A stretch of 64,000 nucleotides of DNA from Haliclystus octoradiatus (lineage: Eukaryota; Cnidaria; Staurozoa; Stauromedusae; Haliclystidae): positions 8,390,030 to 8,454,029 of the forward strand of contig OU744450.1 in NCBI GenBank assembly GCA_916610825.1, read 5' to 3'. The notes under the pieces are model-generated. The model was given only the letters and a program-made list of their open reading frames with translations, was not told the DNA's origin and did not search any database. The position numbers were made by a program, and so were the translations under genes. Within the stretch, counting starts at the first letter, position 1. Each line of letters starts with the position of its first letter. Below, in pieces: positions 5,506 through 60,744 of the stretch.

Positions 5506-5526
5506 AGAGTAGAATAGAGTAGAATT
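5506..5526 (-). repeat. 3' tail repeat of LINE-A
   Basis: Two tandem copies of AGAGTAGAAT (plus strand) at the exact 3' edge of LINE-A. This is a short simple-repeat tail in place of poly(A). Confidence 0.7.
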
Positions 5527-5769
5527 TTATTTCAACCACATGATAAAAATATATTTACAGACTAAAGACATTGATTGATGAAATATGATATACAGTGGTT
5601 GACGTCATCTCGTAAGCAAAATTTGCTTGTATATTAAGAGACGCTATAGAGTTTATGAATGACATGGGTAAAAGGTTAAAAAATAAAATTGGTGAATTTA
5701 AACTACAGGAAAAGAAAATTCAAAAATTAACTGTAATTAGGAAGTTAACATATACTATACAAAAGAATA

Positions 5770-7432: not shown

Positions 7433-7434
<2 letters not shown>
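5770..7434 (-). pseudogene. LINE-A reverse transcriptase, broken
   Basis: The minus strand starts with NRYPNFFNLNSKEIHEKHEN (about 7420-7361), the continuation of the endonuclease-RT linker, then SNYRPISLFCTFSKFLEKVV (about 7075-7016) in the RT fingers. Next come LDIKKAFDTVSHDILL with the first catalytic Asp (about 6875) and FADDTALQWSS (about 6600) with the FADD catalytic pair. GVLIDDDLIWKAHA and KLRKTIFTLIRRKKFLNFEA (about 6345-6244) belong to the thumb. The C-terminal connection continues weakly to about 5770. It would copy element RNA at a nicked target, but at least four frame changes disable it. The closest relative in the window is LINE-C. Confidence 0.9.
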
Positions 7435-7477
<43 letters not shown>

Positions 7478-7488
7478 GTCATCATCAT
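7435..7488. repeat. (CAT)n microsatellite, 3' tail of LINE-B
   Basis: About 18 CAT units with one GTC interruption. Its position at the 3' edge of LINE-B explains it as a retrotransposon tail, not an independent microsatellite. Confidence 0.9.
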
Positions 7489-9306: not shown

Positions 9307-9360
9307 AATTTGTCAAATATATAAACATAGAAAAAATTAAAATTAGTAAAGTAAAATTAA

Positions 9361-9850
9361 TTAAAAGTAAACAGCTCATCTTCATCACTAATCTCTAAGG
9401 TTTTTCCCTCCAAATTTTTCACGTAATCCTTTAGATCATAAGACCATGCAGCAAGGAATTTCCCATCTCTCCTCAATTGGCGACATTTATAAAACAGAAC
9501 AGATTGGACGTTTCTCTGGTTAAATTTTCAGAGACAAATATGCCTGTGGAGTTCAAATTTCTCCTTGATGAGTATATTGCTCTCCTTTTCCAGATGTTTG
9601 AAAAAGTCACATCAACTGTTTTGCATAATGTTGTTGTACCCAGACTGCTCTGATGATCTGTGATTCTTTCGTAATAATACTGATGTAGAAATTTATGATG
9701 GCTGGATTTCATCTCCAAGTTTATCTGAGGCAATTTCTTTAATTATATTTTTCGTTTCTATATTATTTCCGTCATGTTGCTGTGACGAATTTTTTTGGTG
9801 GAAGCAGCTTTCAGACGCTCAATATCTTTGTATTGCTTTAGAATTTGCAC
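9361..9850 (-). pseudogene. LINE-A ORF1 fragment (FP-like C-terminal domain)
   Basis: The minus strand reads NSTGIFVSENLTRETSNLF (open from 9733), then one frameshift near 9490 leads into YKCRQLRRDGKFLAAWSYDL and GKTLEISDEDELFTFN, stopping at about 9361, just 55 bp before ORF2. The pattern (I.V.E.LT...LF...R.LR..GK..A.W) matches the FP-like C-terminal domain I recall in many LINE ORF1 nucleic-acid-binding proteins. The N-terminal half is not recognisable. Confidence 0.7.
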
Positions 9851-11089
9851 GTTGCTGTAAGTTGTTATAAAAATCAGTAAATAGCATACAACAGTAAAGG
9901 TTACAAATTCATAGCAAGATATGTGAAGTTAAAATAGATTATTGACCAGTACTGATCATAAATTCTCAAAACCACTGAGGAAATTAAAACACGTCCGTGC
10001 CCTTCAAAGAGTTCGCAATTATTTGATGATGTATGATGAAAAGGAATTTACTTATATTATAGAAAATGAATCTACTTTACCATGCATTTGATCACGACAT
10101 GAAATCTATCTTCGTCTGAATTATTTCGAATAAAGACAATTTATATTTTATTCTTATCGGGTTTATATTCTTCTTCGACGAAGTATGGTTGCAATAAAGT
10201 TGTATGTATATTAATGTTTTTTGGATTGTATTCCGCTCGTATTTGTTATTTGGATCGTATTTGGAAAATGGTAAGTTATATTTTAATAAATAATGTTTGC
10301 TATGATCGATTATTATATGCAACCTTTTCACTTTTTATTTTTCTAACACAAGGTTTGTTATACTAATATCCAAACTGTGTCAACTATTGAAATGTTTTTT
10401 AATTATGATTTTGAGTTTTTAAGTTAAAAGATATTTTTGAACGCTAGAAATAATGTGATTGTTATTGATCACAGATCATTCGCTTTATTTTCAATTCAAT
10501 TTAAAACTTGTGAATTATTTATCGTTTTATTAAAGTTCATTAAATGCTGAAAAAGAATAATTAGAACAAGTCACGCTATTTCATATTTCTAAACTGCAGC
10601 AAAATACTTTGTCTTGTTCTTGTTGCTGAACAACGTAAGGAAATCTGAATTATAATAACGTTTAAAACTCGTTAATTATTGAAATAAAATCTGAAAAAAA
10701 AACATGCCCTCTCGTAAACCAAACTGTTCACATATTTAAATTAAATTATGAATTATTTAAACAGTCCTGTTCCATGTTTTGATTAACTCAGAATTAATAA
10801 CTTTGAATTCTCCATATACTCTTCGATAAACTCATCAAACATTGAATTTTTTTCGAATATTTTGAGCACCAACGTCATTTTAAAAGCTTTTACATTTTTG
10901 TGCCCTGCCATATATATTAAAGCCATTATTTGAATATAAGTGTAATGTTTATTTGTAGATAGGAAAAAATTATGAACTGCAATATGTTTCATTAATAATG
11001 TCCGTCTGCTAGTAGATAATGCAGACATGAACGACAAAATGATAACACATCAGCATCCATCCCTTTCCATTGTAATCTACTTTTTAACA

Positions 11090-11290: not shown

Positions 11291-11539
11291 ATTTGATTTA
11301 TAAAAATATAGAGTATCAATTCTGTTAAAATTAGCCCTATAAATTCATACTGTTTTGTGCTCTTGGCTCATAAATTCAATATTATACACTGTTTAACAGT
11401 TAGATAATGGATCTTGAAGTAGAAATTATAATATACAGCAAACTTTTATAATTGATTGAAATTTCTATTATCTTACGTCACGTCTTAGATAACAGATTTA
11501 GCCCAAATTAATCTAGCAATCCAGAATAGTTCACAAAAT

Positions 11540-24639: not shown

Positions 24640-27496
24640 TTAGTTTGCTTCGCATATATAGCAATCACGTTCAGTGCATGTTGTGTTATATTTGTCAATC
24701 AGGAACTTTTTTAGGTAGCTAGTGAAACTAGAAATCGGAAGCTGCAAGTCAAAATCGAAGGTAAAAGAATTCCACAATGTTGGGAAATAGTAAGAGGGGA
24801 AACATTGATGCAAGGAAGATCTGGCAAAAGATGGAATAAAAACGTTGTTTTGCCGCCGATGGTTTTTTCGAAATTGAAAATTGACTGAATGCAGGAGTGC
24901 AAATACTTTAACGTTGTACAAATCACCAATTTTTAGAAGACTCAGACTTTTGAAAAGAGGATCCGAGTGTGTTAGCCTTGGTTTTGACATAATATCCCGG
25001 ACACATATTTTTTGAAGAAACAGTATGGGCTTAATTTGCTTACTATTTCCCCAAATTTCAAAAGCATATTCTAAGTGAGGTTTAACGATTGCGTTGTAGA
25101 TTTGAAGTTTATGGTTAAAATTCAAAAATTTTTTGATTCGCACAATTGAATAAATGCTTCTTTGCAATTTTAATCGAACATGGTTGATATGGGTTCGCCA
25201 ATTTAACCTATTATCAATCAGAACACCAAGAAATTTCACAGCTTTTGTTTTAAAATCTGTGCCACATCGCTCCAATAATTGACCATTTATAGAAATATTT
25301 AAATCAGATAATTTATAATTGCCAAAAAGAATAAACTTACATTTATTTTCATTTAGAGTTAGCTTATTATCAGCAAACCATTGAGAAACACAACTTAACT
25401 CATGATTAACATTATTTTCAAGGGTTTTTATATCATTTCCAGACAGCTGCAACGTAGTATCATCAGCAAAAAGGTTTACATCCAATTTTGAACATAACGG
25501 AAGGTCATTAATAAAAATGAGAAAAAGAAGTGGGCCTAAGATACTACCCTGTGGCACACCACAAAAGATGTTACATTGTAGAGGTGTCATCAAAATATAG
25601 AAATTGAGTGCGATTTTTAAAGTAGTTCTTAAACCATATTAGGGCTTCGCTATCCAAACCGTAGTGTGATAATTTTGACAGCAAGATATCATGAGACACA
25701 GTGTCAAAAGCTTTCTTAAGATCCAAAAAAAGACCAACATGATACTTTTCGTTTGGATTTTTGAACTGATTTTGTAAAAAATTTGAAATACAATGGACAG
25801 GATTGTGGAATTTGCGAAAGCCAAACTGAAATTGTGATAAGAAATTATCAGCGAGATTTGAATAAAGTTGGTTATACACAGCACGTTCCACGACCTTTGA
25901 AAATGTTGGCAAAATTGAGATTGGTCTATAGTTTGAGAAAGTGTGTCTGTCACCTGCTTTGAATAATGATAAACATTTGGCACATTTATATAAGTGAGGG
26001 ATGTAGCCTGATTTTATAGACAAATTGATTAAATATGTCAATGGAAAAAGTAAAGGATCTTTGATTGATTTTAAACATTGATTTGAGATATTGTCAAGAC
26101 CACAGCTGTTTTTGTTCCTCATTTCTGTAATTATCTTATCAACAGAATTTACTGAGACGGACTAAAAACTGAAATTACAGGCTATCTCATCAGGGAGGTG
26201 TACCGAAAAATCGGTGTTTGCTTGATGTTGATTGATAAGATCTAGACCTATGTTTGCGAAAAAGGAATTAAAACTATTGGCAATGATTGACTTGTGAGAA
26301 ATTTTTCTACTGTCGAGTTTGAAAAAGGAAGGGTAACGATTGCACTTTTTTTTCCGATTTAATAATTTATTTGTAGCTTGCCACATCTTTCGTGAATCTG
26401 ATTTGTAACGGTTATAAAAAGACGTCCAATATAAAGCTTTAGATTTTCGAAGTAATTTATTGTAAAGTTTGCTCTAAGTAGATAATGCGTCTTTAGTGAT
26501 TCACTTTTGTGTAAAATGAATTGCTTATACATACTAAACCTTTTGAGTCTAGAAACAAGAAGACCATTTGTTATCCAAGGCTCTATATTGTGAAACTTTT
26601 TGTTAAATTTCTTTGACTGTAATGGGCAAGCAATGTCAAGACTTTCTTGGATCTGATTTTGGAAAACTGTGAAAGCTTTTTGTGGATTTTTAGACAAAAA
26701 CCAATCTTGTCCACAGAGAAGGGTTTTTAAAAGAGCAATATTTTCTGGAGACATACAGCGAAAAGTGATTTATTTTTGTTTTTGAATAGAAGGAAAACCT
26801 AAGATACATATGGTGCAAGATGGTCAGAAATTTCAATGATCGAAACACCCGCACTGATTTGTCCCCTAAAATTGGAAAAAATGTTATCGATCAAGGTACA
26901 CGATTTAGTCGTGATTCTTGTCGGGTCAACGATAAGAGGAACTAGCTTGAATGATAACAATTGATCAATTAAATTAGTAGAAGAATGTGTGTTTATCAAT
27001 AGATCGAAATTGAAATCACCAGCTAGGAACATAGCTTTGTTTTTTAGGCCAGCAATAGTAGTGGTAAGATAAGACAGAGTATTACTCAATATGGCTCGTG
27101 GTGGAACATAAATAGAAATATAAAACACCTAGATGTTTCAATTGCAATTAATTCTAAATCATCTTTCAAGATTGTCAAATCAGGACGTTTTGAAAACTCG
27201 ATTGTATTGTGAACTAATACACCAACACCACCGCCTCTCTTTGCACTTCTTTCGCAAGTAGCAAGATTATAATTATCAAACGTGCAAGCATTGGAGTTTT
27301 GCCAGATCTCCTGCAAAGCTAGAATATTGATGTTTGTTTGAGTAAGAAATGCAGCTACCGATTCACTTTGCTTTAATAGGCTCCTGACATTTTGAGATGC
27401 AAATGTCAAATCGGAATGTGGAACATCATTAGGGTCGACATAACCTAGTCTGTTTACCTTATCAATTACTGCATCGTCAGAGTCAACAGTCAACAT
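24640..27496 (-). pseudogene. LINE-C ORF2: endonuclease plus reverse transcriptase, frameshifted
   Basis: Minus strand, in order: LTFASQNVRSLLKQSESVAA and LALQEIWQNSNA (endonuclease Asn and Glu), RGGGVGVLVH, YVPPRAIL, FLAGDFNFDLL, TLIDNIFSNF and ISDHLAPY (catalytic SDH retained). These are followed by the linker MWQATNKLLNRKKKCNRYPS. RT then shows SNYRPISILPTFSKVVERAV, LDLKKAFDTVSHDILLSKL, GVPQGSILGPLLFLIFINDL, FADDTTLQLSG and FLGVLIDNRLNWRTHI, then IYNAIVKPHLEYAFEIWGNS near the end. The last frame is open for 317 codons (25593-24640). Breaks occur near 27100, 26780, 26370 and 25580, with an in-frame stop near 26162. Few enough that the element was probably active in the not too distant past. 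Confidence 0.93.
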
Positions 27497-37860: not shown

Positions 37861-39316
37861 GGAAATTATGCAAACATTTGTGTCGAGATAACCGTGTACA
37901 GTAACAAATTTGTTGTATGAAAAGTATAGGTCTATGAAGTTGTTTTAGAATAGTATACTTCATCTGATATTTTATTTGATATAATTGTATTAAAAAATTC
38001 AAAGATTTTGAAAAACTTCATGGGTTGGTAATCTAGCAGGCAGCCAAATTGAATTAAAATTGAAATCTCCAGAACAAAAATATTTTGCTTTAAAATTTAA
38101 TTAATATAAAAGCTGTGTGTAAATTGTTTGAACACGTGAAACTTGAATTTGAATCAGATTTATGATAATTAAAACAATACGAAATACTGAATTACATTGA
38201 ATTACCAGTATAACTAGGCCAAACAAATTATGTTTAAAAATCAAAGAAACGTAGACCTATTTCATGTAATGTTGATATCAGCAATATATATAGCGCGGCA
38301 CAAACGCTATGAAAATTAAAGAGACTTTGGGTCTCTAATGTATCAATGAAACAAAATGCCGTTCATTACTTTTCTCAAAATCGAGATACAAACATTTCAC
38401 TTTCAAAAGGCTATTTTGATATATAATTTGTGAGAACACTGAGCAAACAATCTGTTTTGAAATGAATAATCTATCGCGGGGCCTAAAAAATAATAAATTA
38501 ACTTGGAAGAATTTTCAAAATTACGTTAGCGTTCGACTAATTCGAAAAAATATTCAAAGTTCGAAGAGATTATCTGTTTACAGTCTAAAATTGAAGAGTT
38601 TAGAATCAATCAAGGCATTGCACAAAAGTATTTCTATAAGTTATTATTTAATATAAAAATATAAATCATTTGGTTTTGAGCAGGCAGGCTTTTATTTTCA
38701 GATTTTGCTTCCATAATTCAGGAAGGAAATGTAAGCATCGATTAAAATTAAAACTTCATTTTGTGACTTGCTATAAGAATAAGACACAGTATGTTACTAC
38801 AGATTCGAGAATATAAATAGCGGTGTCTTGTTATTATCGTTGATCAACATTTAATAAAGTTAATTTCAGGTATATCAAAATCAACAGAGTTAAATTGAAT
38901 TGAGCGTAAGATTTGGGATAAATAATAATAATTATAATATTTTCAGACGTTCAAACATTTTGCTTTGAATTTCAAAGCATAAAAGCATAATTTAAAAACA
39001 TTTTTAAATAGTTAATACAGTTTGGATGAGTGTAACAAACCTTGTGTTACAAAAATTAAAAGCGAAAAGGTTGCATGAAATAATCGATCATAGCAAACAA
39101 TATTTATTATAATACAACTTACCATTTTCAAAATGAGATACAAATAAAACTATACCGAACAACATTTAAATACATAATAGCGAGTTCTCTGAGTTAATAC
39201 ACCAATCAATAATAAGTTAACAGCCATATTTTATCGAAGGAGAATGTACGCCCGATAAGAATAAAATATAGATTGTCTTTTATTCGAAATAATTCTGACA
39301 AAAATGATCATTTCAT

Positions 39317-39470
39317 CCCGCTAAACACATGACGTCTTTATGACAAAAAAAGACGTCTTTTTCCTGTCATAAATTGGTTCGACTGGTCAGCCGTATCTCG
39401 TCAGTCAGAAAGACGATTGGAAAACGTGATAAAGACGACTCTAATTTTTCTTTCAGGTGTTGATGATATT
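39317..39470. promoter_or_regulatory. Left terminal repeat and AAGACGT subterminal motifs
   Basis: After CCCGCTAAACACA there are GACGTCTTTA (39331), AGACGTCTTT (39351), AAAGACGATT and AAAGACGACT (39427-39460). Mirrored clusters at 59910-60135 make these likely transposase or accessory-protein binding sites, by analogy with the subterminal motifs of En/Spm. Confidence 0.75.
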
Positions 39471-39539
39471 CTTATAATTCATGGAAAGCAGATGAAACAA
39501 ACGGATGCACTTGCATTGTAAAACCATATAAAGATTATT

Positions 39540-40880
39540 TGACATTTCGTCTTTATATCGTCAGAAATTCGTTCCATTTGGTCGCTCGAAACTGGTCAGT
39601 CCCAATAACGTTATAAAGACGTGTTTTGTAGTAAATGTTTTCAATGATTGAAATATAGTATTCCATTGTTTTCTCATTTATTTCTCGTTCTAAAAATGGA
39701 TAGAAGTTAAAAACACTTTTCTAAATCCGTCGAAATTTTTACTTGTCAGTTAATGGTCCAATTTGGTCACTTGAAACTGGTCAGTCCCAGTAACGTTATA
39801 AAGACGTGTTTTGTAGTAAATGTTATCAATGATTGAAATATAATATTCCATTGTTTTATGATTTATTCCTCGTTTTAAAAATGGATAGAAGTTATAAACA
39901 TTTTTCTAAATCCATCGAAATTTTTACTTGTCAGTAAATGGTCCCATCTGGTCACTCGAAACTGGTTAGTCCCAATAACGTTATAAAGACGTGTTTTGTA
40001 GTAAATGTTTTCAACGATTGAAATATAATATTCCATTGTTTTATGATTTATTCCTCGTTTTGAAAATGGATAGAAGTTATAAACATTTTTCTAAATCCAT
40101 CGAAATTTTTACTTGTCAGTAAATGGTCCCATCTGGTCACTCGAAACTGGTTAGTCCCGATAACGTCATAAAGACGTGTTTTGTAGTAAATGTTATCAAT
40201 GATTGAAATATAATATTCCATTGTTTTATGATTTATTCCTCGTTTTAAAAATGGATAGAAGTTATAAACATTTTTCTAAATCCACCGAAATTTTTACTTG
40301 TCAGTAAATGGTCCCATCTGGTCACTCGAAACTGGTTAGTCCCAATAACGTTATAAATACGTGTTTGTAGTAAATGTTTTCAATGATTGAAATATAATAT
40401 TCCATTGTTCTATGATTTATTCCTCGTTTTAAAAATGGATAGAAGTTATAAACATTTTTCTAAATCCATCGAATTTTTTACTTGTCAGTAAATGGTTCCA
40501 TCTGGTCACTCGAAACTGGTCAGTCCCAATAACGTTATAAATACGTGTTTGTAGTAAATGTTTTCAATGATTGAAATATAATATTCCATTGTTCTATGAT
40601 TTATTCCTCGTTTTAAAAATGGATAGAAGTTATAAACATTTTTCTAAATACATCGAATTTCTTACTTGTCAGTAAGTGGTCCCATCCGGTCACTCGAAAC
40701 TGGTTAGTCCCAATAACGTTCTAAAGACGTGTTTTGTAGTAAATGTTTTCAATGATTGAAATATAATATTTTATTGTTTTATGATTTATTCCTCGTCCTA
40801 AAAAGGGATAGAAGCTATGTACACTTTTTTGAATCCATGGAAATATTTGTCAGTAAATTTTCCCATCTGCTCAGTCCATT
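39540..40880 (+). repeat. 185-bp subterminal tandem repeats
   Basis: AACGTTATAAAGACGTGTTT recurs with its C of ACG at about 39609, 39794, 39979, 40164, 40349, 40533 and 40717, a period of 184-185 bp. Each unit also holds GGTCACTCGAAACTGGTTAG and TTTTTACTTGTCAGTAAATG. The array multiplies the AAGACGT word near the left transposon end. The right end has the motif but no such array. Confidence 0.93.
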
Positions 40881-41088
40881 GCTAGATACATTCTATCAGT
40901 ACATGTACATGTTTTTATATTTGAAATATTTACGTGCAGGGAAACTTAGCAATTTTCTTGGCAAAGATCATCACGAATGAAGAGCGAGTTTCGCTTCTAG
41001 GCAAAATATGAATAATTGGATATATATGATATATTAAAATACACAATAAAAAATACAAATCTAAAATTTAAATGGAGGATATAAAAAT

Positions 41089-45828
<4,740 letters not shown>

Positions 45829-46384
45829 ATTAGTTGTCTATTTTTATGAAAAATGTGTTTAAAAGAAATGTGTTGCAAGGCAAGCAGGCTAACCATAACA
45901 TGCACAAATAGTATTAATTGCAGCCAAAAAATCTTTAGACATAAGACATGATACGCTGAGAGACAGAAAATATTTAATAAAACATCACGTTATAACACCT
46001 GCAATATGATTGGTCGGTTTCACTGTTTTGAAGCGTTGCGTAAAATCAAAATTCTTGCTTGGTTCTATGGACTAAACATTAAAGATTTTGTTACTGTTGG
46101 TATATCTGTGTGAAAAAGTTTTGGAGAAAATCTGTGTGATAACCTTTCAGTCACAGTTTGAAAAGTAGATATTGTACTGTCATTAACTATTTTAATTAGG
46201 CATAGAAATACAACAAAGTAAGATAAACATGTGTAACATAATTTACTCTAAATATCAAATACATTGCATTAATTTATCTTCAACTATAAGAATGTTACAA
46301 AAAGTTCCAATTTCTATGGGAATTTTTTTTTACAAGGTCTACAGTAAGGAAATGTAATTGTAATACATTTTTATAATGCTACAC
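45829..46384. other. Spacer between transposase and accessory gene A
   Basis: About 0.55 kb, AT-rich. The transposase stop overlaps a perfect donor-like GTAAGT (46377-46388 area, minus strand), and an acceptor TTTCAG lies at about 45802-45807. Joining them does not preserve frame, so the two proteins appear to be separate products or alternative transcripts. Confidence 0.45.
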
Positions 46385-48430
46385 TTACATGAAACTGTGG
46401 AGCAAGGGAAGGAAGTATTTCCATCCACATTTTTCATACATCATGCATTTTTGACGGAAAGATGTCACATCTACTTTATAAATGTTCCCGCTATCTGATT
46501 TTGCTCTACAAAACCCTAGCACCCGTGAGTCACAGGGTTTATCAAATAAGGCATGTATGTCATTAAAAACTCTGCATAGACAAAATTTTGAATTAGAGAG
46601 TGGATCACCACTATTAATAACTTGAAGAACCTCACAAAATTTACCATTAGAGAGACTATATATATTGTTCGATTTTCTGACACTGATAATAAACTTTTTT
46701 GGCAGGAAAACAGAGGAAATTTGGTCTTCTTCAATACATCTATGGACTTCCTGGACAACTACGTTCTTGCCTGGCTTTATTTTCCTTTTAAGTTTACCAA
46801 GGTAGCTTTCGAAAAGCCAAGCAGCGTAGCTATCCAAACAGCCATGAGTGGCAGCTTCAGGTGCAAGATGACCAAGAGTATGGATATTGTATACCAGAAA
46901 CCCTTTGCCGTATAGACACTTCCCTTTCTCCACAAATCTGCGTAACAGCCTGTGTGCATAACTTAAATGCTTAACAATTAACGTAGGACTTACTAAAATA
47001 CATATTGCTACACTTAGACACATAAAATGATTATAATATTTGGTTTTTATAACACCTTTCAAAATGTAACGTCCTGTATAAAGAAGGAAAAGTCTAAATT
47101 CGGTCGCCTTCCAATGAGAAACATGATTGAGGGATCTAGGCTTCCTAGAAAAGTCATTTGGAACGGCTGATTTCAGGAATAATATCCTCTGGTTTGCTAT
47201 GGCCATGTGAACAGATGACATTCGGTACTTTCGGTCACCTTTCAACCAAATTTTTAACAACCGTTTCATTGTTCCAAGACAAACCGAATGCATGTAATCT
47301 ATTGGGAATACTTTTATCATGTCAATCTCTTTTAATTTTGTGAACGGTGATTTACCAGTATGATGTTCTTTATTTACTTGTGAGCGAAATGATTTATCGC
47401 TGCGGTTTGAAGTGTATTTGTTATATATTACTTTATTTTTAAAATACTCTCCTTCCACATCACATTTGTCACAAGCGAAATGGCCACCAAATTGTTTCAT
47501 GCATTTCAGCATTGCACGGGCAGGAGCATCACAAACTATGGCTTTTAGTATTACATCCAACGTTTTCCCATCGTATTCAATACCATCTTTGAGCAGGGAA
47601 TTCATTTCGCATATAGTTTCCCTCAAAAATTTCAGATTAGTAGGCTTACTTTCCCCGCCTGTGATCACCACAGGAAATACCTTTTTTGGTTCAATATTTG
47701 ATATACAACATAGTATAGGCCAGAAACATAACTTCGAACTTCTGAAAAGCGGTAAACCATCAATGTTAAAGATCAGTTCCAGTGATCGAATTGATGAGAG
47801 AGCATCACTTTCAAATTTAGCAAGCATTAAATGTAACTGACGCTTAAGCCCAAAATTGAAATATTCCATATTTGAAACCATTCGTAATTTGATGTCTCTT
47901 GGTGTCTTCAAAAGTGTTCTTGCAGTTCGAGGCATGTCCGACAATTGATGAAGATTACCAGTTAAGATTTTGAGTAAGGCATCAACACCATTGTGGCTAA
48001 CATTGAATATTCCACACCACTCTGACAGCTCTACTTTAAGTTTTCCCACTGTATCTTGTGAAATTCCACCTGATTCAACACTGCCCTCATTTTCATCAAT
48101 GAATTCAAGTTGCCTGTTGACTACTGTTGCATCATTACAAGGTGTACATTTGTTCCCATCATAAAATGGTGCTAGACTATCCCAGTCACATGGTGGTGCA
48201 ATCTGATTCATGTCGCACATCATCACATCTGGAGGTGCAGTAAACGCATCATTAACATCAGTAGATTCCCAACCATTGTCAACCGGGTTTGAAATTAAGC
48301 TGTGTGGATACTCTTGTGAAGTACACTGTAGGCGTGATGAAGGATTTCTAGTAAGAGGATTGCTCCTGTTGAAGAAACATCTAACTCGCATCCAATGACG
48401 ACGGTATCCTTTGCGCGGCTGTTGAAGCAT
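46385..48430 (-). CDS. Tnp2/CACTA-like DDE transposase, 681 aa, intact
   Basis: A single uninterrupted frame. Landmarks: basic N-terminus (RKGYRRHWMRVRC, about residues 6-18); helical segment about 125-205; ELIFNIDGLPLFRSS with D224; FWPILC about 236-241; VCDAPAR with D301; zinc-type CDKC at C320/C323; FPIDYMHSVCLGTMKRLLKIW about 375-395; HWKATEFRLFLLYTG about 439-453; VYNIHTLGHL about 513-522; WLFESYLGKLKRKI with E541. D224, D301 and E541 are my candidate catalytic triad. The FNIDGLPLF...CDAPAR...FExYL pattern is one I know from animal Tnp2-like (Transposase_21-related, CACTA/EnSpm) proteins. It would cut and rejoin the ends of the 39317-60149 element in the nucleus. An N-terminal upstream exon is possible, since the start ATG near 48430 has no special context. 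Lack of any stop in 2 kb of AT-rich DNA argues for recent function. Confidence 0.9.
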   Translation of the reverse strand: MLQQPRKGYRRHWMRVRCFFNRSNPLTRNPSSRLQCTSQEYPHSLISNPVDNGWESTDVNDAFTAPPDVMMCDMNQIAPPCDWDSLAPFYDGNKCTPCNDATVVNRQLEFIDENEGSVESGGISQDTVGKLKVELSEWCGIFNVSHNGVDALLKILTGNLHQLSDMPRTARTLLKTPRDIKLRMVSNMEYFNFGLKRQLHLMLAKFESDALSSIRSLELIFNIDGLPLFRSSKLCFWPILCCISNIEPKKVFPVVITGGESKPTNLKFLRETICEMNSLLKDGIEYDGKTLDVILKAIVCDAPARAMLKCMKQFGGHFACDKCDVEGEYFKNKVIYNKYTSNRSDKSFRSQVNKEHHTGKSPFTKLKEIDMIKVFPIDYMHSVCLGTMKRLLKIWLKGDRKYRMSSVHMAIANQRILFLKSAVPNDFSRKPRSLNHVSHWKATEFRLFLLYTGRYILKGVIKTKYYNHFMCLSVAICILVSPTLIVKHLSYAHRLLRRFVEKGKCLYGKGFLVYNIHTLGHLAPEAATHGCLDSYAAWLFESYLGKLKRKIKPGKNVVVQEVHRCIEEDQISSVFLPKKFIISVRKSNNIYSLSNGKFCEVLQVINSGDPLSNSKFCLCRVFNDIHALFDKPCDSRVLGFCRAKSDSGNIYKVDVTSFRQKCMMYEKCGWKYFLPLLHSFM

Positions 48431-50267
48431 GCTTCAATGTATATAACTAATACGCCTATTAATTAGAAGGGAATCATAAGTTAAAATTGCAATAACTTGG
48501 CTTACAAATATATCCCAATGCTCCTGCTTCACCAGCATATAGAATAAGGTATGCTTTTTTACATATTTAGTTTTAAGAAAATTCAAATTTATGATTTATC
48601 GAAATCATTTGATCTTGAATGAAACAAAATCGCTTTATCATTCAAATCATTAAAATACCAAGCGGAAGTGCCAATAATGATGAAGTTATGACAATTTGAA
48701 ATTGACAAATTTACTAATTTTGACCCAATTATGCGAATTTTAGTTACATTTCTACAAATTTTAAACAAAATCAGAGAGGGTGGTGTCATTTTTGTCCACA
48801 AAGTGTGTTGATTTGGCAAGGAATGACCTACATTTTTGTTAAAGCTGCCAGTTCTAAAACGCTTTGCGCATATATTATCATTTCGGTATCAAAATTTATG
48901 AAATAGAGTGAAGTTTATAAGAGTAATAACGGATATGAAAAAAGGTATTATTCTGAAAAACAAGACAGAAAACGAAAGCAATGCAAACGCAGAATCAAAA
49001 CTTGATTGGTTGAGGGAATAAGAGAACTCGAAATGAATCAACAGCAATAAATTCAGAAAAGCAGAAATGTGAACCCTGTAGGTTTTTAGATTTTTAGCCT
49101 GTAAATAATTGTATTTTAATGTTTTATTTCTTTTGAACTAGCAACATTAATTTATTATTATACGGTAATCATACAGTTTCTCATTCAATTATGGATTAAT
49201 TTACATTTGTGAATTTTTCATAAAGATTAAATTGAACTCGCCTTATAGGATCTTTCTAAAAATAGGATTAAGATAGATGAGTAGGCCTACTTTTTGAGAT
49301 GCAAGCGTTTGTAAAAATGATCCCTACAAAACTTGCAAAACGAAGATTCAAATTCAAGGAGGAGCCTATGACGTCAATGTGTCAAAATCTCAGATCAAAC
49401 CTTCATCATTAAAACTGTTAGTAATTCCATTGTTCAATCAGAAAAATAACACATTGACGTCATTCTTCAAACAAAGTATAATAACAATACATGCACCCTT
49501 TTAAAATTTCTGTTAACAACGATAAAATGGAATGATAAAGAAACATAGGGGCCTACTTTTAATTTGATTATAATATTTTTCACTCGAAAATGTAGGTCCC
49601 CAAAAATCTATGGTAAATCTTTTATCAAAGAATGATAGAATACTTTGCATTTTGGTAATTTTACTTTAAATGTAAACTCTGAAAGTGAAACCTGCTATTT
49701 GAAACAAGTATATATTTATATATCTAGTGAAGAGTATACATCAGGCCTACCAAATATACTGTTGCTACTTGTTGAATTTGTTGTGTGTTTAAACAAAAAA
49801 GTTTTTAAAAAAGAAAAATCCCTGAAATAAAAATTATTGTTCAACACACAAGTTGAAATAGAGGATTTCAGCATTGGAATCACTCAAAATAGGTATAAGA
49901 CTTTAAGGGGGATCGCTACAATAGAGGCAAAATTTAAAAACTGTAATAATTTGCTGAAATTTGGTAGTAACATTCCGTAATTCTCAACATGTTGAATTAT
50001 GAAATAAAAATTAGGGGTTGCCATATTATTTGGGGCACATGGGGCAACAGATCCCCTAACAATTTATTGGGTTCAATACTTCTATTGCTTGATCCGAAAT
50101 AAAAAAATTACATATTTGGTAAATGGAGCAGAGATTTGGTAGAAATACACATGAATACATGCATAATCTTTATCAAGCTGAAATTTGACTATATAGACAA
50201 TGGCAAATTTTTATGGTGATGCCCCCTGGGAGTGGTAATTTTTAATGGACAGAAATGCTAAATAATC
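48431..50267. other. Upstream region of the transposase
   Basis: No gene seen. Contains a 94-bp hairpin with perfect 14-bp ends TGACGTCAATGTGT / ACACATTGACGTCA (49369-49382 and 49449-49462). Any 5' exon of the transposase transcript would have to cross this stretch from the palindrome centre. Confidence 0.45.
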
Positions 50268-53200
50268 TACTTAATGACTGCAGAAAGCACTCCCTAAATT
50301 CCAAGTTATGAAAGCTGAATGCCTAATCTGAATAGGCATGTACATATTTAAGTGGAATTCCAAATTGATAAAATTCAATAAGACAAAGATATTAGTAATG
50401 CATAGGCTACCATTCAGGAATTCTCTCAGTATCTTATCCTTTGATAAACTTACCATTATGAATCTCCAAAAAAGCCAAGACACACACCAATGATTGACGA
50501 TTGTTGTAAAAGTTTATGGTCTGAATCTGAAAGAACACCAGCATAAAAGCAAACTAATTAGATTACATTGTTAAAACCAATTTATTTCAATTTTCAGATA
50601 TCAAGGTTGGTTGATGTAGGCCTGCACATATAATATGAACTGTGTGAGCATCTTATAATATGTTAAACAGTAGGGTACTCTGTGTTAGTGATTTGCTTTC
50701 AACTTTAATATCAACAGTTACTGTTCTACCTGGGATAGGCTACAATCAAATTAAATTTGCACTTTCAATAATATTTGATGATGTCTGTTATTTCACAATT
50801 TTTTTCATTGTAAAAAAGAAAATTGAACACTGTAGGGTCTGTATAATTAGACTACTACTAGCATTGCGTAGTTGCAAAAACAATCAAAATAATTTGTCTG
50901 ATACAGGTTGTCAAACACTAATATAGGCATAGTAATGGGAATTGAAAAGCATAGGCAGTTCTATGGTTATTGAACAATTGGTTACCTGAGTAAAAATCTT
51001 TGCCATTTTTACATTTTAAAAAGTCAAGGTCAAAATAAAGATTTATCATACATTTCATATTGAGGAGCATCTCAGTATGGTACTGCAGTTTTTATAATTA
51101 ATAATAACCTCAGTTTTGCAATATCTAACAATATCAAGTTGTTTATAGATGGTCAATTACATACACCTTTATATATTTGTTCTTGCTAGAGAAAGACAGT
51201 TTTGAAAGTTAGAGCATGTGGTCAACATACTATCTACTTAAACACGAAGGAATAGGATAAGGGTAAAATAAAATGCTTACCAATTCAACCAAACAAAGCC
51301 AGTAATACTGATAATATGTCTCTTCACAAGGGCAATCAACGAATGTCGCTTAACAATCTACTGTAGGCTTACTTGAAATTTGAAGCGAAAATCAAACAAC
51401 TTCTAACTCAATACAAACGATAAATTGAACCAAAGCTTTAGAACATCGTATCACGAAGGATAGATGCATAATGATCACATTGCCAAGTCATGCAATATTG
51501 TATTACGGTTTTAGCTATAGGCTATTACTTTCATGCAGGGCAGGAATAGCTTAGCCCGGAGGGATTAAAATTTGATTACGGATGTTAGGTTGTGTGTAAA
51601 GTACTTCATTTTAAATTGATTTACTGTAAAAACAAACAATCACTAATCGCATGAAAATTGAACTTAGTTGAATTCAGGGTCATATAAATATATCATTAGG
51701 CCTAAATTAAGTCATGTAAAACTCTTATCTTATGCCAATGCCCGGGCTACGATTGCCAAGACGAGCTGCAATAAGAAATCATGATAACAAAATAGGGACA
51801 TTTTTAAAATGAACTAAACTGCTATGTAATCAGTGAGATTGTTAAGCGACAAAACAGTTGGTTAAGCCTGATCGCCTGGATGTTGACAGACTGTTGCTCT
51901 CTGCCATGTCCATGTCCTGTTCTAATACCTAAATGCAAAAACATCAAAGTGTTACATAAATTCTGACAACAGTCAATAAATGGAACGATCATACCTGTAT
52001 TGTGTTAGATCTATTATCAAGCAAAACCCAGTATCGTTACAACCTATTTATTTAAAAAAATTATTAAGCTAAACGTTTCGTTTTTGAAACAACTTTTTCG
52101 CCGCCATGACATTTCCAATCCATATAGACATTTACATGGGTAAGAGGCTTGCATTGTCTCAAATCACAAATGTCTCCTATTCATGCTTCTAACTCAAAAT
52201 TGTTTGAAAAATTGCGCCTAAAAGACCCCAAAAATCAAAATTTAGGTCAAATTCATCATGGCGGAGTTGTTACACAAATGAGACGTTTAACTATATAGTT
52301 TATAGAGTAGATAGATTGCATCGATACTGGGTTTTGCTTTATAATAGGTCTAACACAATGCAGGTATGATCGTTTCATCTATTGACTGTTGTCAGAATTT
52401 ATGTAACACTTTGATGTTTTTGCATTTAGGTATTAGTAACAGGACATGGTCATGGCAGAGCAACAGTCTGTCAACATTCAGGCTTAACCAACTGTTTTGT
52501 CGCTTAACAATCTCACTGATTACATAGAAAGCAGTTTAGTTCATTTTAAAAATGTCCCTATTTTGTTATCATGATTTCTTATTGCAGCTCGTCTTGGCAA
52601 TCGTAGCCCGGGCATTGGCATAAGATAAGAGTTTTACATGACTTAATTTAGGCCTAATGATATATTTATATGACCCTGAATTCAACTAAGTTCAATTTTC
52701 AAGCGATTAGTGATTGTTTGTTTTTACAGTAAATCAATTTAAAATGAAGTACTTTACACACAACCTAACATCCGTAAACAAATTTTAATCCCTCCGGGCT
52801 AAGCTATTCCTGCCCTGCATGAATGTAATAGCCTATAGCTAAAACCGTAATACAATATTGCATGACTTGGCAATGTGATCATTATGCATCTATCCTTCGT
52901 GATACGATGTTCTAAAGCTTTGGTTCAATTTATCGTTTGTATTGAGTTAGAAGTTGTTTGATTTTCGCTTCAAATTTCAAGTAAGCCTACAGTAGATTGT
53001 TAAGCGACATTCGTTGATTGCCCTTGTGAAGAGACATATTATCAGTATTACTGGCTTTGTTTGGTTGAATTGGTAAGCATTTTATTTGACCCTTATTCTA
53101 TTCCTTCGTGTTTAAGTAGATAGTATGTTGACCACATGCTCTAACTTTCAAAACTGTCTTTCTCTAGCAAGAACAAATATATAAAGGTGTATGTAATTGA

Positions 53201-54076
53201 CCATCTATAAACAACTTGATATTGTTAGATATTGCAAAACTGAGGTTATTATTAATTATAAAAACTGCAGTACCATACTGAGATGCTCCTCAATATGAAA
53301 TGTATGATAAATCTTTATTTTGACCTTGACTTTTTAAAATGTAAAAATGGCAAAGATTTTTACTCAGGTAACCAATTGTTCAATAACCATAGAACTGCCT
53401 ATGCTTTTCAATTCCCATTACTATGCCTATATTAGTGTTTGACAACCTGTATCAGACAAATTATTTTGATTGTTTTTGCAACTACGCAATGCTAGTAGTA
53501 GTCTAATTATACAGACCCTACAGTGTTCAATTTTCTTTTTTACAATGAAAAAAATTGTGAAATAACAGACATCATCAAATATTATTGAAAGTGCAAATTT
53601 AATTTGATTGTAGCCTATCCCAGGTAGAACAGTAACTGTTGATATTAAAGTTGAAAGCAAATCACTAACACAGAGTACCCTACTGTTTAACATATTATAA
53701 GATGCTCACACAGTTCATATTATATGTGCAGGCCTACATCAACCAACCTTGATATCTGAAAATTGAAATAAATTGGTTTTAACAATGTAATCTAATTAGT
53801 TTGCTTTTATGCTGGTGTTCTTTCAGATTCAGACCATAAACTTTTACAACAATCGTCAATCATTGGTGTGTGTCTTGGCTTTTTTGGAGATTCATAATGG
53901 TAAGTTTATCAAATGATAATATACTGAGAGAATTCCTGAATGGTAGCCTATGCATTACTAATGTCTCTGTCTTATTGAATTTTATCAATTTGGAATTCCA
54001 TTTAAATCTGTACATGCCTATTCAGATGGGGCATTCAGCTTCATGACTTGGAATAACAAGGGCTTTCTGCAATTGT
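50268..54076. repeat. 3.8-kb palindrome in the middle of the 20.8-kb element
   Basis: Left arm 50268 to about 52035 and right arm about 52322-54076 are reverse complements at about 95-97% by eye; coordinates of paired bases sum to about 104353 (for example 50660 and 53693). The central 280 bp is a more diverged continuation of the symmetry. An identical 88-codon frame appears in both arms only because of the palindrome and has no recognised motif. Arms hold mirrored splice-like signals (ACACAATGCAG followed by GTATGATCG at 52360), which suits 5' non-coding exons of two divergent transcripts. Confidence 0.95.
52036..52321. promoter_or_regulatory. Palindrome centre, candidate divergent promoter
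   Basis: ATGGCGGCGAAAAAG on minus from 52107 and ATGGCGGAGTTG on plus from 52258 face away from each other, 150 bp apart. Both frames stop within 8-13 codons, so they are uORFs or decayed starts. Transposase and gene A lie downstream on the minus side, gene B downstream on the plus side. Promoter function is inference from layout. Confidence 0.4.
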
Positions 54077-57056
54077 CGGGTATATTATAATAGAAGGCCT
54101 AGTTTTCCCAAATAAAAGTATTATATTATCTTCCATTGATAGACTTATATTAATACACGTTACAGTGCCACCTAAAACAATTGAGATCGCACCATTGTTA
54201 GACCTTCAAATAAATTATTCATAATTGCAATGCTTACAGTTATTCAGTATGGAGTTACCCTCTAAAACCTGACCTCATTATAGTTTGTATTGTTGAATAG
54301 AATATCATTCAAGGAGTTGCTAATTAAAATTTTAAGTGATTTCATCAATTATATTCAAAATTATAAATGATTATCAAGGTGGCTATTTTTTTCATTGGAA
54401 TGACGTCATAAGACTCATATAACTCATAACCCATTTCTGCCATTGAAGATTTTGTTTATTCCTAAAATTCTCAATGTGTTTTTCATGTTTGACTAGTAAA
54501 TTCATTATAGCCTATTATGGATTCTGCTGCAGGCTATTCTGAGAAATCTAAATGCTTTTCAAGCAGCATGTTGATATACAAATGATAAGCAAAAGCAATC
54601 ACAATAGTATTTAAGGTTCTCAAGAATACTTTATGATCCATCATAAATTAATTAGTCACACATTAAGAATTTTAGGAATGAACAATAATCTTCAACGTCA
54701 GAAAGAGATTATGAGTTTATGATGTCACTCCAATGAAAGAAAATAGCCACATTGATAGCCTAATCTTTTAAAAGTTTGAGTATAATTTATCAACTCGCTT
54801 CAATTGTGAATTGGTAACATCTTTAGTGATATGCTATTCAATAATACAAAAATATTATGGGTTGGAATAGTATGCCAGGTTGGAGGAGAAATCCCTCAAT
54901 TACTGGCCCACTTTTATATTTTGCATGCTTTTTTTACAATTGCTTTTTTATAAAAATATCAATTCTATTCGTCAACGAAATTTTCTGTCTTTGGATTTGT
55001 CATAAAATTTGATAACAAAATCATTTGGCAATAAGGGCTACTTGTTTTTACAATAAATACATTTGGTGTGATTATCACTTATCTTAGAGGGATTGTTTAG
55101 AGATGCGGATGTAATGCAGAAATCATTTTCGATGGTGCTGACAGCGGTTTGCTTTGGTGTGTTAATAGGCCTACATCTTTTGTGCAGTAAGTAATACCTT
55201 TATATCTAGCCTATCATTAAATATGTAGAATGACATGATACTTTAACTTGCGATATAATAAGATGGTGTCGTCTTATTGATGTATCGTCTTAAGATGGTG
55301 ATGTCTACACATGTTTTATTTAACATCCTTGATTCTACTACCTACCATCAGTTTCATCGCCCTTTGGAGTTCATTTAGTTTATAAATATAAACATAAACA
55401 AAGTAGCGGCGACAATAAGACAAACATACAACAACAAATAAATGGAACAGGTTTTGTTGCAGTAGGCCTACAGCTAATGTATTGATTTGTAAGAAATTGA
55501 ATTCACTCATGTTGAAATGTGTTATAAATTTTAATATATGCCAATGATGGGGGGGGGTGTTGTCCTGCTCATTATTACATTATTTTTTGACTCTTTTCTT
55601 TTGCCACATAACATGCATGCATCTTTCGCACAGTCATGTCTTAAAAATTCTTTAAAAGAAAACATATTGCTTTAATTTGGCTATGACCTTTGAACCTTTA
55701 AGTGGCTCAAAGTTTAATGGATGTGATTGTCCAATACCGTTCAATAAAAGCTTCAGGACCATGCTGCACTTGGTAGGCCTAGTATTGATTGTTAATATAT
55801 TGCGTTGGTTTCTGCCAATAACCAGAACATTTTTGAAGTAATTGAATTATCTATATGCGTATGCCAATCTTTCAATTCTACCATAGGCCTTATAAATTAA
55901 TTTGACCAAAACATAACAAATTTGGTATAATTTTCTTTGTTTTGTTTTCTTGCTCAATGCCTCAACTAAAATTGTGATACATCTGTTATGAAACATAATT
56001 CAATTTTATTTTCATATTCTCCACTATAAACAGTATTTAAACAGCTTTTGCTAGGTACAATTAACAATTATCGAACGGGTTTGAGCGTGACATTGGGAAT
56101 GATCAGACTGATGGCTCTATTATCTATCGAAGCTGTAGGCTGAGTTAGATCATAGAGCCTCAAAGTTTGATAAATTCTCAATGAAATGCGGAAGCAAGTT
56201 TTATAATGTTATTATTCAACATAAATTTTTGTAGCAAAAAGTTGGTTTTTCTAGGAACACTTCAGATTTAAGTAAACAGAGAAGTTTTCAATTCAAAAAA
56301 ACAAAATTAAATTAATCACTATCCTTACCTGGTAGTTTAAAATCATAATAAACATCTTTCTGATACCATTTAACATATCTTACTTTAATCTTTACGTCAT
56401 ATTGTAACCAAGGTGATACTAGTGTCTCATGCTTTTGTCGCATTGTTAGGCCTATTGTTTTATTATTGACATCATAATAATTGGAACACTTATAGAATTG
56501 TCTGGATTCTATTATATTAAGATCGTAACGAAATTTGAAATTGCGATTGGTAATAATATTTATTTATATTTCATTTACTTTAAATAATATCATGAAATTA
56601 TAACTGTTACCATAATGCACAGGACTAGACATCTGTGACATAATGTTCACATTGTTTGATAGAGATGAAAGCTTATTGATTGAACATGTGGTTGTTTGTT
56701 TTGTATCTATTGTATTATAGATTGTACTCTCTTCGTTAGATGTTATGTTTTCGTTTGTCTCTCAAGTATTGCGTATTTCTTTGAATGTAAAAAACCATTT
56801 TCTCCGTGTAAGCCTATAAGTTCTCTTTCTGTCTGTTTGTCATAGCGATAACATCACCTTAGAAGTCTAAAGCTTCATAGATGCTCTGTCATCACCTTTG
56901 TTAATCCTCTCTCTGTCGGTGACTAACTAACAACTATTATTATATTATCAAATACTTCTTTATGCATCAACATCTATGTACGAGTAGTTATCTTCAGTAT
57001 GTAAGTTTATTATTCCACACCTCTACAAAGACATGCTTTCAACTTGTTCCCTATAG
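54077..57056. other. Spacer upstream of accessory gene B
   Basis: No transposase counterpart is present on this side, although the element is otherwise mirrored. I also could not find matches for the first four exons of gene A. A foldback MITE lies at 54378-54752. Several TAGGCCTA words occur (for example 55158-55166 and 55462-55470). Confidence 0.5.
54378..54752. mobile_element. Foldback MITE, about 375 bp
   Basis: Inverted ends GTGGCTATTTTTTTCATTGG and the complement of GTGGCTATTTTCTTTCATTG. Further pairing includes TGACGTCATAA with TGACATCATAA and TTCCTAAAATTCTCAATGTG with its near complement. Arms are about 105 bp with a loop of about 165 bp. Non-coding; target duplication unclear. Confidence 0.75.
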
Positions 57057-59567
57057 TTTCAAAGCCGCTCAATGGACGTTGTTGTGTTTAACCCCTGCGC
57101 TGACATTGGAGAGTTTGGATTGCTCAACAATAGGCTACAAGAGAATAGGGAAAAAGAAAACATGGTGTGTAGACAGTAACAGTGTAGTGTATCCTTGTAT
57201 TAATTTTCTTACCCACAACAACGCCTTACACCAGATTTGGGAGTAAATAGAATTCTGTTGCTGATTCAAATATTTGAAGAGGTAGCGATAAGATAAGATG
57301 TTAAAGTTGAATGTGATATCATGTGAGCATAAAATAAGAATGTGACCAGTGAGCGACTGCTCAGCTCAAAGGCTATAAGAGAATGACTACAAATTACTAA
57401 ATACAATTGAACAGCTGTTTTTTAGCACGTGGCAATATGAATGGAAAATGTGACACACTGATAAGCTCACAGCGGTATTATAGAATATATATACACCTTT
57501 AAGTAAAATAACTCTGATATCTGCCTGTGTAAATTTTGCCATCATTTGCATTGTTTGGCTCAATTATAGGCTATACTGCATTGTAACCATTACCCTCAAA
57601 ATGCTGGATACTAACCATTGTTGTACTTTATCTTTCCTCTTTTTTAGATTGATTACATTGACACTTTTAGCAAGGCAGATTTTACGTGCAGCATTAGAGC
57701 AATGATGATTTGCGTTGGTATGTCATATATGTTTTTATCTCATTGTGAATAATATAGGCCTACATTAGCCATTATATGCAATAATCAATGTTGAGCTGTG
57801 ATATTTTTCAGTGGCTCTATGCTATTAATTAAATTTGGTGTTGCAAAGGTAGGCCTACTAATCCACTGAATAATATTCACCGATTTAATGGCTGACTGGC
57901 TGGAATGACTATTACACCCTCTTTCACTGTAACACAACTTCAATCTCAACATGTACAAACAGTGCCATTTATATGCCCATCAATTCCAACATTTTGTTAT
58001 CATTGAGTATAAGGGGCTGTATGTTATTCTATATTGTTTATATATGTTTTCATATCAAACTGTCTTACACTTTCAGGCTCATATGCGCTGTGGGCCAAAT
58101 GTAGCCTGAAGGGACAACGCGGAGGGAAGCTCAGAGTGCATGGTACTAACGCCCATAAAGTGATTATAGGTAAGTGATACCCTTATAATTTGGCCTACGC
58201 AGACATAACTTGCAGCACAGTTTACATGTTACAGATAATACAAGCTGAATACTTAGTTGTGCTGTAAAGACAAAGACCGTTCACATTATAATTGTTACTT
58301 GAAAATTACTGTTCCAATTCCTTATTTAAAAATAAGGCCTAACACAGATATAACTTGCAAATATAAGAATGTGATTTCTCAACATAATGAGGATTATAAT
58401 TGTTGCATATGACCATTGGAGAGTCGTAGAGTAAAGCATGACTTGATATCAATGTATAAATTAACTCATGTTCTGGTTGATTTAAAAATTACTTCATTGT
58501 GTAGTATAGAGAAAAATAAAGATGATATGAGAGGGAACTCTTTTAAGTTGAAGCCATCATCAACACCAAAGCGAGAATCAGTAAAATATGAATTCTTCAA
58601 CCGCGTCATACCAAGGTGGAATGCATTGACAGAAGAATGTGTTTCTTCGAAAACCGTTTCTGCTTTCAAGCAGTTTTTAAATAATGTAAATCTAAATCAG
58701 TATTGTACTATCAGCACTGACTAAGCTTTTGATCAATAGCATAATTAACTTTTATACTTTTTAACTTATTATTATCTAATTTCATATTGTATACCAATGG
58801 CTGTACATAAGTGGGAGCCGAAAGCTTTCCTGTATTTTGCCTGTCATAATTTATTTGGTGAATAAACATACATACATTTCGTTTATTTTTTGTTTTATTT
58901 AGTGGCTATGAAGCGAAAGCACTCAACTATATTGGAAAAAGACATTGATGTGGGGATAGCTTGTTTCCTAAAAAATGCACCAGATACGATGAGGGTGTGT
59001 GAAGAAAATAGCTTTATTTGGATGTGAGCCTGTCTAATGTCTAATATTTATATGTAGCCTATTCATCTTGGAGCCTTCTGGTTGTTAGGCAAATAATTAT
59101 TGTGTAATTATTCATTTTATGTCGAAGAGGGATGTTTGCATTATTTCATTGCCACAATTTGATCTGAAAAAGGTGACCTTTTAATTTGATCTGAAAAAGG
59201 TGACCTTTTAATTTTGTCCCAAGTGACTGACCCCTCTAAATTTCTTTCTCATTAAAAAAATAAGGGGCAGGTAAACTTCATCAATTTGACAAAGACGTCA
59301 TCAATTAAGAGAAATAACATTGGTTTTAATGATATATGGGACGACTTTGATTTATGGGTATATATAATCTAGGTCTAAGGATCGTTTTAACAAGGTCAGA
59401 CCTTTTCCATATCAAAATTACGGTTTAATTTGTACTATATTTTATCACAAAGTTATCAATCATATATACTACTTGAACATATATATCAGGTATACTGATT
59501 GATAATTATTTTTTATTTTTAGAATACTCAGTCCCAACCACCACTTTCTCCAGCGCATTCAAGATGA
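57057..59567 (+). CDS. Accessory gene B of the 20.8-kb element (DUF4806-like, spliced)
   Basis: Plus-strand exons with GT-AG borders: 57057-57164 (FNPCADIGEFGLLNNRLQEN), 57648-57717 (IDYIDTFSKADFTCSIRAMM), 58077-58169 (LWAKCSLKGQRGGKLRVHGT), 58903-58994 (DVGIACFLKNAPDTMR), 59523-59567 (NTQSQPPLSPAHSR, stop). All joins keep frame, and exons two to four have exactly the lengths of their gene A counterparts (70, 93, 92 nt). The product is clearly homologous to the C-terminal half of A but much diverged, with a shorter tail. Matches to A's N-terminal exons were not found, so B is either 5'-truncated or uses upstream exons from the palindrome. Intron sequence after exon 58169 aligns with A's at about 87% by eye. 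The intron before 58903 contains a LINE fragment. Confidence 0.68.
58416..58880 (+). mobile_element. 5'-truncated LINE fragment in an intron of gene B
   Basis: The frame 58416-58724 encodes the RT C-terminus of an L2/CR1/RTE-type LINE: RRVKHDLISMYKLTH, DDMRGNSFKLKPS and FFNRVIPRWNALTEECVSS, then SAFKQFLNN before its stop. A 3' UTR follows (GGGAGCCGAAAGCTTTCC near 58815) and ends near AATAAACATACATACATTT. It has the same orientation as gene B and ends about 25 bp before the acceptor of the exon at 58903. The corresponding intron of gene A lacks it. Confidence 0.8.
59156..59211 (+). repeat. 27-bp tandem duplication containing AAAAGGTGACCTTTT
   Basis: AATTTGATCTGAAAAAGG + TGACCTTTT occurs twice head to tail. 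Each copy holds a 15-bp near-palindrome. It lies in the last intron of gene B. Confidence 0.9.
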
Positions 59568-59899
59568 ATTAGCGATGCAAAGTCGTGCTGCTCCATTCTA
59601 AAAGATCAAATCAAATATCAAGTTTTTATTTTTAATTGTAAATGTTTTAAAAATTTTTTTAATGTTTTAGTTTAAATGTTAAATTTAATTATCAAGTTTT
59701 CATTTTTAATTGTAAATTTCTTAGTTACAAATGTTACATTTAATTATCAACATGATATTTTTAATTTATAGCAATATTGGCATTTGTTCATAATGATCAA
59801 TTATCCACTTTCTACATATCTACATGTTTACTTGCCTTATATTCCACATTCCACTATTTGACGGAATCGATACGCTTGAAACACATTATATGATGGTCT

Positions 59900-60149
59900 T
59901 AAAATACGTTCTAAATACGTCTTTTATATTGGTGTTTTCGCCGTCTCTCAAAGACGTCATTTAGTCGCCCCTAAAAGACGTTTCTTCGGAGACTAAAAAG
60001 TGACGTCTTTTCTACGTCGTGTAAAGACGTCTTTATAACCACTGAATGTGTTCACAAGCAGTCGTCTTAATGACGTCTTGATTTACGTCTTAAGGACGGG
60101 ACCAATGACCAATTACTCACGTCATTAAGACGTGTTTGTGTTTAGCGGG
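59900..60149. promoter_or_regulatory. Right terminal repeat and AAGACGT subterminal motifs
   Basis: At least nine ACGTCTT/AAGACGT-type words between 59915 and 60135 in both orientations (for example AAAGACGTCATTTAG at 59950, GTAAAGACGTCTTTATAA at 60021, GTCGTCTTAATGACGTCTTG at 60061). The end is ACGTGTTTGTGTTTAGCGGG at 60149. This mirrors the left end. Confidence 0.8.
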
Positions 60150-60744
60150 ATGTCGTGATGAAATGCATGATAAAGTAGATTCATTTTCTACATAGTAAAT
60201 TATCCTTTTCATCAGACATCATAACATGAGCATTTAAATATTACCATCGGTTGTGGTATTTTATATCTTTGAAGCTGCACCAAACATTTACACTCTATAA
60301 ACCATCGCGTCCGTTTCAATTAATTCTGAATAAATATGCATATCATGAATCTGGCAAAATGAGTTGTTTTCGTTTTTCTATCAAAGTAACTAATTTATTC
60401 ATAATCGTCTTTTCTTTCATTCGACATCTGTAATGTATTATAAATAGCGCGTAGAAATAGTGACAACAAGATGTAACATAATATTAATATCGAATTAGTA
60501 TAGCGATTTATTATAGAATTTTATTTCCTTTTAAAAGAATGTTGATGCTATTATTTTGGAAAATTTGATAACAAGAACCACTATCAGGCCAATTTTTCAG
60601 ATCTTTTTTTCACTTATAAAATTTTATTTCAACGAACTCTTAGTATTTTGATAGACTGCCATGAAAATCACAGGCATTCTTGCTGAGATTGCAAAGATCA
60701 AAAATATATAGGCTCATATACTATATCATAATATTTTCAGATTA

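Follow-up and report, generated by a model that had tools for sequence, protein, structure and literature searches.

The En/Spm transposon of maize possesses subterminal repeats and gives rise to internal-deletion derivatives, both of which are also seen for the element described here, and the Transib/RAG1 systems duplicate 5 bp of their target. Among the animal CACTA elements of the TRC group, SmTRC1 is described as having a Transposase_21-type transposase, terminal repeats starting with CCC and 2-bp target duplications (PMC1636069). We analysed a 64-kb stretch of contig OU744450.1 of Haliclystus octoradiatus (hereafter the window), in which a 20.8-kb transposon carries a transposase gene, a gene downstream of it on the same strand (gene A) and an inverted homologue of the latter near the opposite end (gene B). 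Genome-wide searches covered 262 Mb in 33 contigs. With its CCC ends, 2-bp duplication and relationship to Transposase_21, the element fits the animal CACTA (TRC) type. We consider it probable that the locus as a whole represents an animal CACTA/EnSpm (TRC) cut-and-paste transposon, accompanied by gene A as a standing partner and by gene B as a decaying inverted homologue of that partner.

Ends, insertion site and genomic copies

In the window, CCCGCTAAACAC occurs once per strand, at 39317 and 60138-60149, and the element is flanked by TTTCAT on the left and ATGTCG on the right, i.e., AT/AT. An outer inverted repeat (815-10885 and 38513-61650; ~1.9 kb per arm, in pieces 71-88% identical) encloses 27.6 kb of other sequence and holds the transposon within its right arm. 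Its left arm (reverse complement of 9951-10250) aligns through the insertion point with a single AT, and corresponds to the empty site. Matching termini, an AT duplication and an empty site in the other outer arm had all been claimed in a first-pass annotation, and each was borne out. Past the initial 13 bases the two ends align only weakly, so the terminal inverted repeat is short. The subterminal layout is unlike at the two ends: the initial units of the left tandem array show AAGACG motifs every 185 bp, whereas the right end is dense in GACGTC. The first 1500 bp of the element contain 10 ACGTC/GACGT sites and the terminal 1000 bp 16, of which 14 fall within the final 260 bp, versus 13 in the 18.3-kb interior and 38 in the 43.2 kb outside the element.

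Searching the genome with the right end (260 bp) gave eight matches, and with the left end (244 bp) nine; both ends were found in the same relative orientation in six copies on five contigs (Table 1). CCCGCTAAACAC, beginning with CCC, was present at both ends of all six. Every paired copy was flanked by an identical dinucleotide composed of A/T only: AT in the window, c2b and c5, AA in c2a, and TA in c7 and c8. Three left-end matches (C11, C6:3.66 Mb and C8:11.81 Mb) and two right-end matches (C6:25.1 Mb, partial, and C1:17.0 Mb, 69%) had no partner among these matches. Gene A, the transposase gene and gene B keep the order and orientation of the window in c2b, c2a and c5; in c8 the left end is retained along with gene B and four 3' exons of gene A, and c7 is made up of 1.3 kb from the left end and 1.8 kb from the right. 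Because of what these copies retain, we conclude that the element moves as a whole unit, as initially proposed, and that end-only derivatives were formed and inserted. Further copies with identical ends and 2-bp duplications, for which the first-pass annotation had suggested a search, do exist, and the six paired copies rule out that the left and right parts are separate elements. The window is rich in nested repeats, in which two adjacent insertions or an assembly artefact could mimic a single element; nevertheless, paired ends at six loci on five contigs, each with its 2-bp duplication, leave this explanation a negligible chance.

Further structural differences were noticed among the copies. 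A 943-bp insert with an AATT duplication is present in c2b and c2a, for which the window offers the empty site at 50237-50240. A nested palindrome at 50279-54071 occurs in c2b and c2a and is absent from c5; a 146-bp spacer separates its arms of ~1.8 kb, which are 98% alike, and TGCAGAAAG/CTTTCTGCA form its ends. It might be a foldback element that duplicated TGCA. A left-end-only copy at C8:11811500-11819000, ~5% diverged from the window, carries tandemly duplicated 3' exons of gene A.

Table 1. Features of the transposon in the window and its end-paired copies in the genome
Feature	Position	Strand	Remarks
Whole transposon	39317..60149		20,833 bp; ends found paired, with 2-bp duplications, at 6 places in the genome
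Left target-site duplication	39315..39316		AT
Right target-site duplication	60150..60151		AT
Left terminal inverted repeat	39317..39329	+	CCCGCTAAACACA
Right terminal inverted repeat	60137..60149	-	
Left subterminal tandem array	39560..40967		7 copies, ~185-bp spacing
Right subterminal region	59890..60149		14 ACGTC/GACGT sites in 260 bp vs 13 in 18.3-kb interior
Empty target site (left outer arm, outside element)	10026..10200	-	Join near 10100
Transposase	46385..48430	-	681 aa, single open frame; D224, D301, C320xxC323, H517xxxH521, E541
Gene A, putative DUF4806-like partner	41089..45828	-	8 exons, 325 aa; GT-AG introns
Gene A exons	45721-45828, 45100-45211, 44523-44693, 43772-43992, 42698-42767, 42232-42324, 41825-41916, 41089-41199	-	
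Gene B, inverted homologue of gene A 3' half	57072..59567	+	5 exons
Gene B exons	57072-57164, 57648-57717, 58077-58169, 58903-58994, 59523-59567	+	
Copy in window	39317-60149		20,833 bp
Copy c2b	C2:35217516-35238244		
Copy c5	C5:11066375-11085058		
Copy c2a	C2:5146857-5170779		
Copy c8	C8:21227736-21235674		7.9 kb
Copy c7	C7:8305358-8308412		3.06 kb

The transposase and a probable partner gene downstream

The 681-codon frame is free of stops, as had been noted at first, and is open in two copies that are 99% alike (the c2b frame is open). D301, C320-C323, H517-H521 and E541 are invariant across 28 sequences, and the C(2)C and H(3-4)H motifs lie between the second D and the E, as in the CMC/Transib group. 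The catalytic core is predicted to adopt the RAG1/Transib fold. A relationship to Pfam Transposase_21 (PF02992; Tnp2) is established through homologues: precomputed labels assign this domain to 19 of the 120 homologues listed, of 2014, and five of the eight homologues scanned match it at E values of 2.4e-6 to 1.7e-3, none above the cut-off. The initial assignment as a Tnp2-like transposase was therefore upheld by the homologues, but not by the profile search proposed for the protein itself, whose only Pfam match was Plavaka (E 0.054, below the cut-off). Relatives were also sought in viral and prokaryote contigs, where none of the 30 and 41 pattern matches, respectively, was confirmed by tblastn. 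We propose that the transposase would act as a RAG1/Transib-like DDE enzyme, cutting at the CCCGCTAAACACA ends and inserting the element with a 2-bp duplication. Insertion with this duplication is seen in the copies, and the fold and residues suggest cutting chemistry of the RAG/Transib kind. Short derivatives with both ends would be mobilised in trans by intact copies.

Nine transposase loci among the genome matches were examined downstream, the window's own family being counted as one locus. An A-like gene was found downstream on the same strand at eight of them, down to a transposase identity of 42% (the own family, C10:10672014, C4:19297188, C4:33177012, C7:20427244, C1:8022524, C11:7380650 and C5:14005603), of which C11:7380650 and C5:14005603 look like a single family. 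Several of the A-like loci are degenerate, with exons seen only in part, and 22 kb searched at C4:33177012 yielded no convincing pair of inverted termini flanked by a 2-bp duplication. The combination of a transposase with a downstream A-like gene is a stronger regularity than the mirrored gene pair. Because this neighbour is constant across the range of divergence covered, gene A looks more like machinery than cargo, and is probably a standing partner of the transposase lineage. DUF4806 has been counted in annotated genes, for example 69 times in one Hydra species and 54 times in another, in a report whose accessible part does not state whether those genes belong to transposons (PMC7642931), and gene A might accordingly be host cargo that was captured and stands outside the transposition machinery; we find this improbable, as A-like genes occupy the same place and strand at eight of the nine loci.

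The models of genes A and B were built from the sequence alone, with GT-AG at all internal splice sites of both. The exons, splice sites and open frame of gene A are all retained in c2b, c2a, c5 and c11. Its protein comprises an N-terminal module (motifs labelled VVEF, VPSSW and YWP), a middle part and a C-terminal domain, and can be viewed as a VVEF/YWP module joined to a putative DUF4806-like domain. The DUF4806 label is tentative, in that it holds for A and B only via relatives and below the curated cut-off (PF16064; 25 bits). When the profile was applied, as first suggested, the A and B proteins gave no match, but two counterparts of gene A did below that cut-off, i.e., those behind the transposases at C4:33177012 (56% identical; E 4e-4, 21.1 bits) and C1:8022524 (E 1.1e-3, 19.6 bits). 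By analogy with TnpA in maize En/Spm, the gene A protein would probably bind the GACGTC-rich subterminal repeats. A long AAT microsatellite at 42718-43500, in an intron of gene A, varies in length among copies.

Several results weigh against the interpretation as a TRC element with a DUF4806-type partner. The transposase alone reached no Pfam cut-off, and three of the eight scanned homologues did not match Transposase_21. DUF4806 was matched neither by the proteins of genes A and B nor by the gene A counterpart behind C7:20427244; a genome-wide DUF4806 search returned nothing, although none of its 14 controls was detected either, and protein database searches with gene A or the accessory alignment yielded no protein at E<=1e-3. 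The A-like match at C5:14005603 is the weakest (E 0.002) and is interrupted by a stop, and no A-like gene was found within 5 kb of the most distant transposase (C2:26577205, 33% identical). Finally, purifying selection among copies was not shown for gene A, gene B or the transposase, for which unique synonymous/nonsynonymous changes amount to 6/13, 4/15 and 9/22 (p 0.40, 1 and 0.27, respectively), numbers too few to discern selection. A difference in selection on gene B, indicated by pooled counts, was dropped as shared changes had been counted multiply (unique variants, Fisher p 0.56).

Gene B and its origin

The three internal exons common to genes A and B agree in length (70, 93 and 92 nt) and phase. 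Over 116 ungapped codons, 55 residues are identical, and pS is 0.748 as opposed to a pN of 0.302, so that the pair is old and its protein sequence was long conserved. Gene B was found in the genome only in copies of this family, and was probably already there before the present copies spread. The picture of two mirrored, spliced DUF4806-like genes drawn in the first-pass annotation remains correct as to opposite ends, opposite strands and GT-AG introns, but gene B covers the 3' half of gene A only, and no counterpart of the N-terminal half was found in the element. Its exons are open in two of the five copies holding them (the window and c2a) and frameshifted in the other three, in c2b and c5 by a common 5-bp insertion and in c8 by two deletions; c2b and c5 also read CTG where the model has ATG. 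In most of the copies possessing it, gene B would be undergoing decay. Given the missing N-terminal half, the frameshifts and the lost start codons, the earlier description of B as one of two accessory proteins is not well supported insofar as it implies a working protein.

It may be speculated that both A and B function as specialised partner proteins and that the element needs the two of them, with A serving the 185-bp array of the left end and B the dense GACGTC of the right end. The subterminal layouts of the two ends do differ, the two proteins remained alike while synonymous sites became saturated, and gene B retains A's lengths and phases in the common internal exons, as well as open modelled exons in the window and c2a. 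Nevertheless, we regard this arrangement as unlikely, given that B lacks the N-terminal half of A, is disrupted in c2b, c5 and c8, and has lost its modelled start codon in c2b and c5 even though the c2b transposase is open; moreover, a search of the sequence upstream of the transposase in two relatives (C10, 10 kb; C4:33177012, 9.8 kb) revealed no B-like gene.

As for the origin of gene B, either an inverted partial duplication or a fusion of two related elements could account for it. A stretch of 700 bp aligns between A and B at the DNA level, introns included. The intron beside the common 93-nt exon (42068-42231 / 58170-58336) is 88% identical (150/171), whereas the exon itself is 72% identical (67/93; third positions 16/31). 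All 13 places in the genome matching this intron segment are A or B introns of this family, which rules out a dispersed repeat, and RNA structure was not indicated (z -0.95 and +0.80). Conversion and a conserved noncoding element are both conceivable. Because the 700-bp match includes introns, an internal inverted duplication (or conversion) is favoured over a composite origin, in which two related CACTA elements fused head to head and the second one contributed gene B and the right end. This latter scenario, a refinement compatible with the overall explanation preferred above, would suit the outward direction of A and B, each toward its nearest end, and the saturated synonymous divergence of two genes residing in one element. 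However, gene B was not found in any element other than those of this family, and C1:17045336, the sole diverged right-end relative, has neither a transposase nor an accessory gene in 9.5 kb, and was rejected as donor of the right end. We hold the composite origin to be possible but doubtful.

Surrounding sequence and comparison with known systems

Elsewhere in the window, a reverse transcriptase in two overlapping frames (24640-26122, minus strand; Pfam RVT_1, E 2.8e-14 and 2.3e-17) is, by the look of it, a broken non-LTR element. The left outer arm contains ~3.4 kb of inserted sequence between 96-bp direct repeats (946-4504; 96% alike), including a 226-aa frame with only weak and unrelated Pfam matches. 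A tandem array of at least 10 units of ~179 bp lies at 11537-13650. Neither tRNAs nor RNA families above gathering score were found in the window.

Our search of the literature, partial in coverage, found nothing linking DUF4806 (PF16064) with CACTA elements. This domain of unknown function is numerous in some animals, as reported for Hydra (PMC7642931), and its repeated position behind CACTA transposases in this genome suggests a role as partner protein of transposons that can be put to the test. With an open transposase in two copies that are 99% alike and with short end-only derivatives, the family lends itself to bench testing of a large animal CACTA system. It might even be imagined, as an outside chance, that DUF4806-type proteins are general TnpA-like partners of animal CACTA transposases, doubled here into left-end and right-end forms, so that the ends would pair asymmetrically, much as the two-signal rule has it for the related RAG recombinase.

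The size of 20.8 kb is not unusual for a CACTA element; a soybean member reportedly measures 20.5 kb. The present element resembles SmTRC1 and the animal TRC elements in its Transposase_21-type transposase, ends starting with CCC and 2-bp duplications; SmTRC1 differs in its length of ~4.5-4.7 kb and 54-bp terminal repeat, as opposed to 20.8 kb and 13 bp here, and the accessible part of its description (PMC1636069) mentions neither a DUF4806 gene nor a mirrored relic of one, whereas here the partner gene is separate and spliced and is accompanied by a second, inverted copy. To Transib/RAG1 it is similar in predicted fold and in the C2C/H(3-4)H motif between the second D and the E, a motif described in PMC12730594; the likeness is one of fold and motif, and the 2-bp duplication sets the present element apart. 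As in maize En/Spm, there are two element-encoded proteins; nevertheless, TnpA and TnpD of maize derive from one alternatively spliced unit, whereas the partner described here is a separate downstream gene with another type of domain, mirrored once more at the opposite end.

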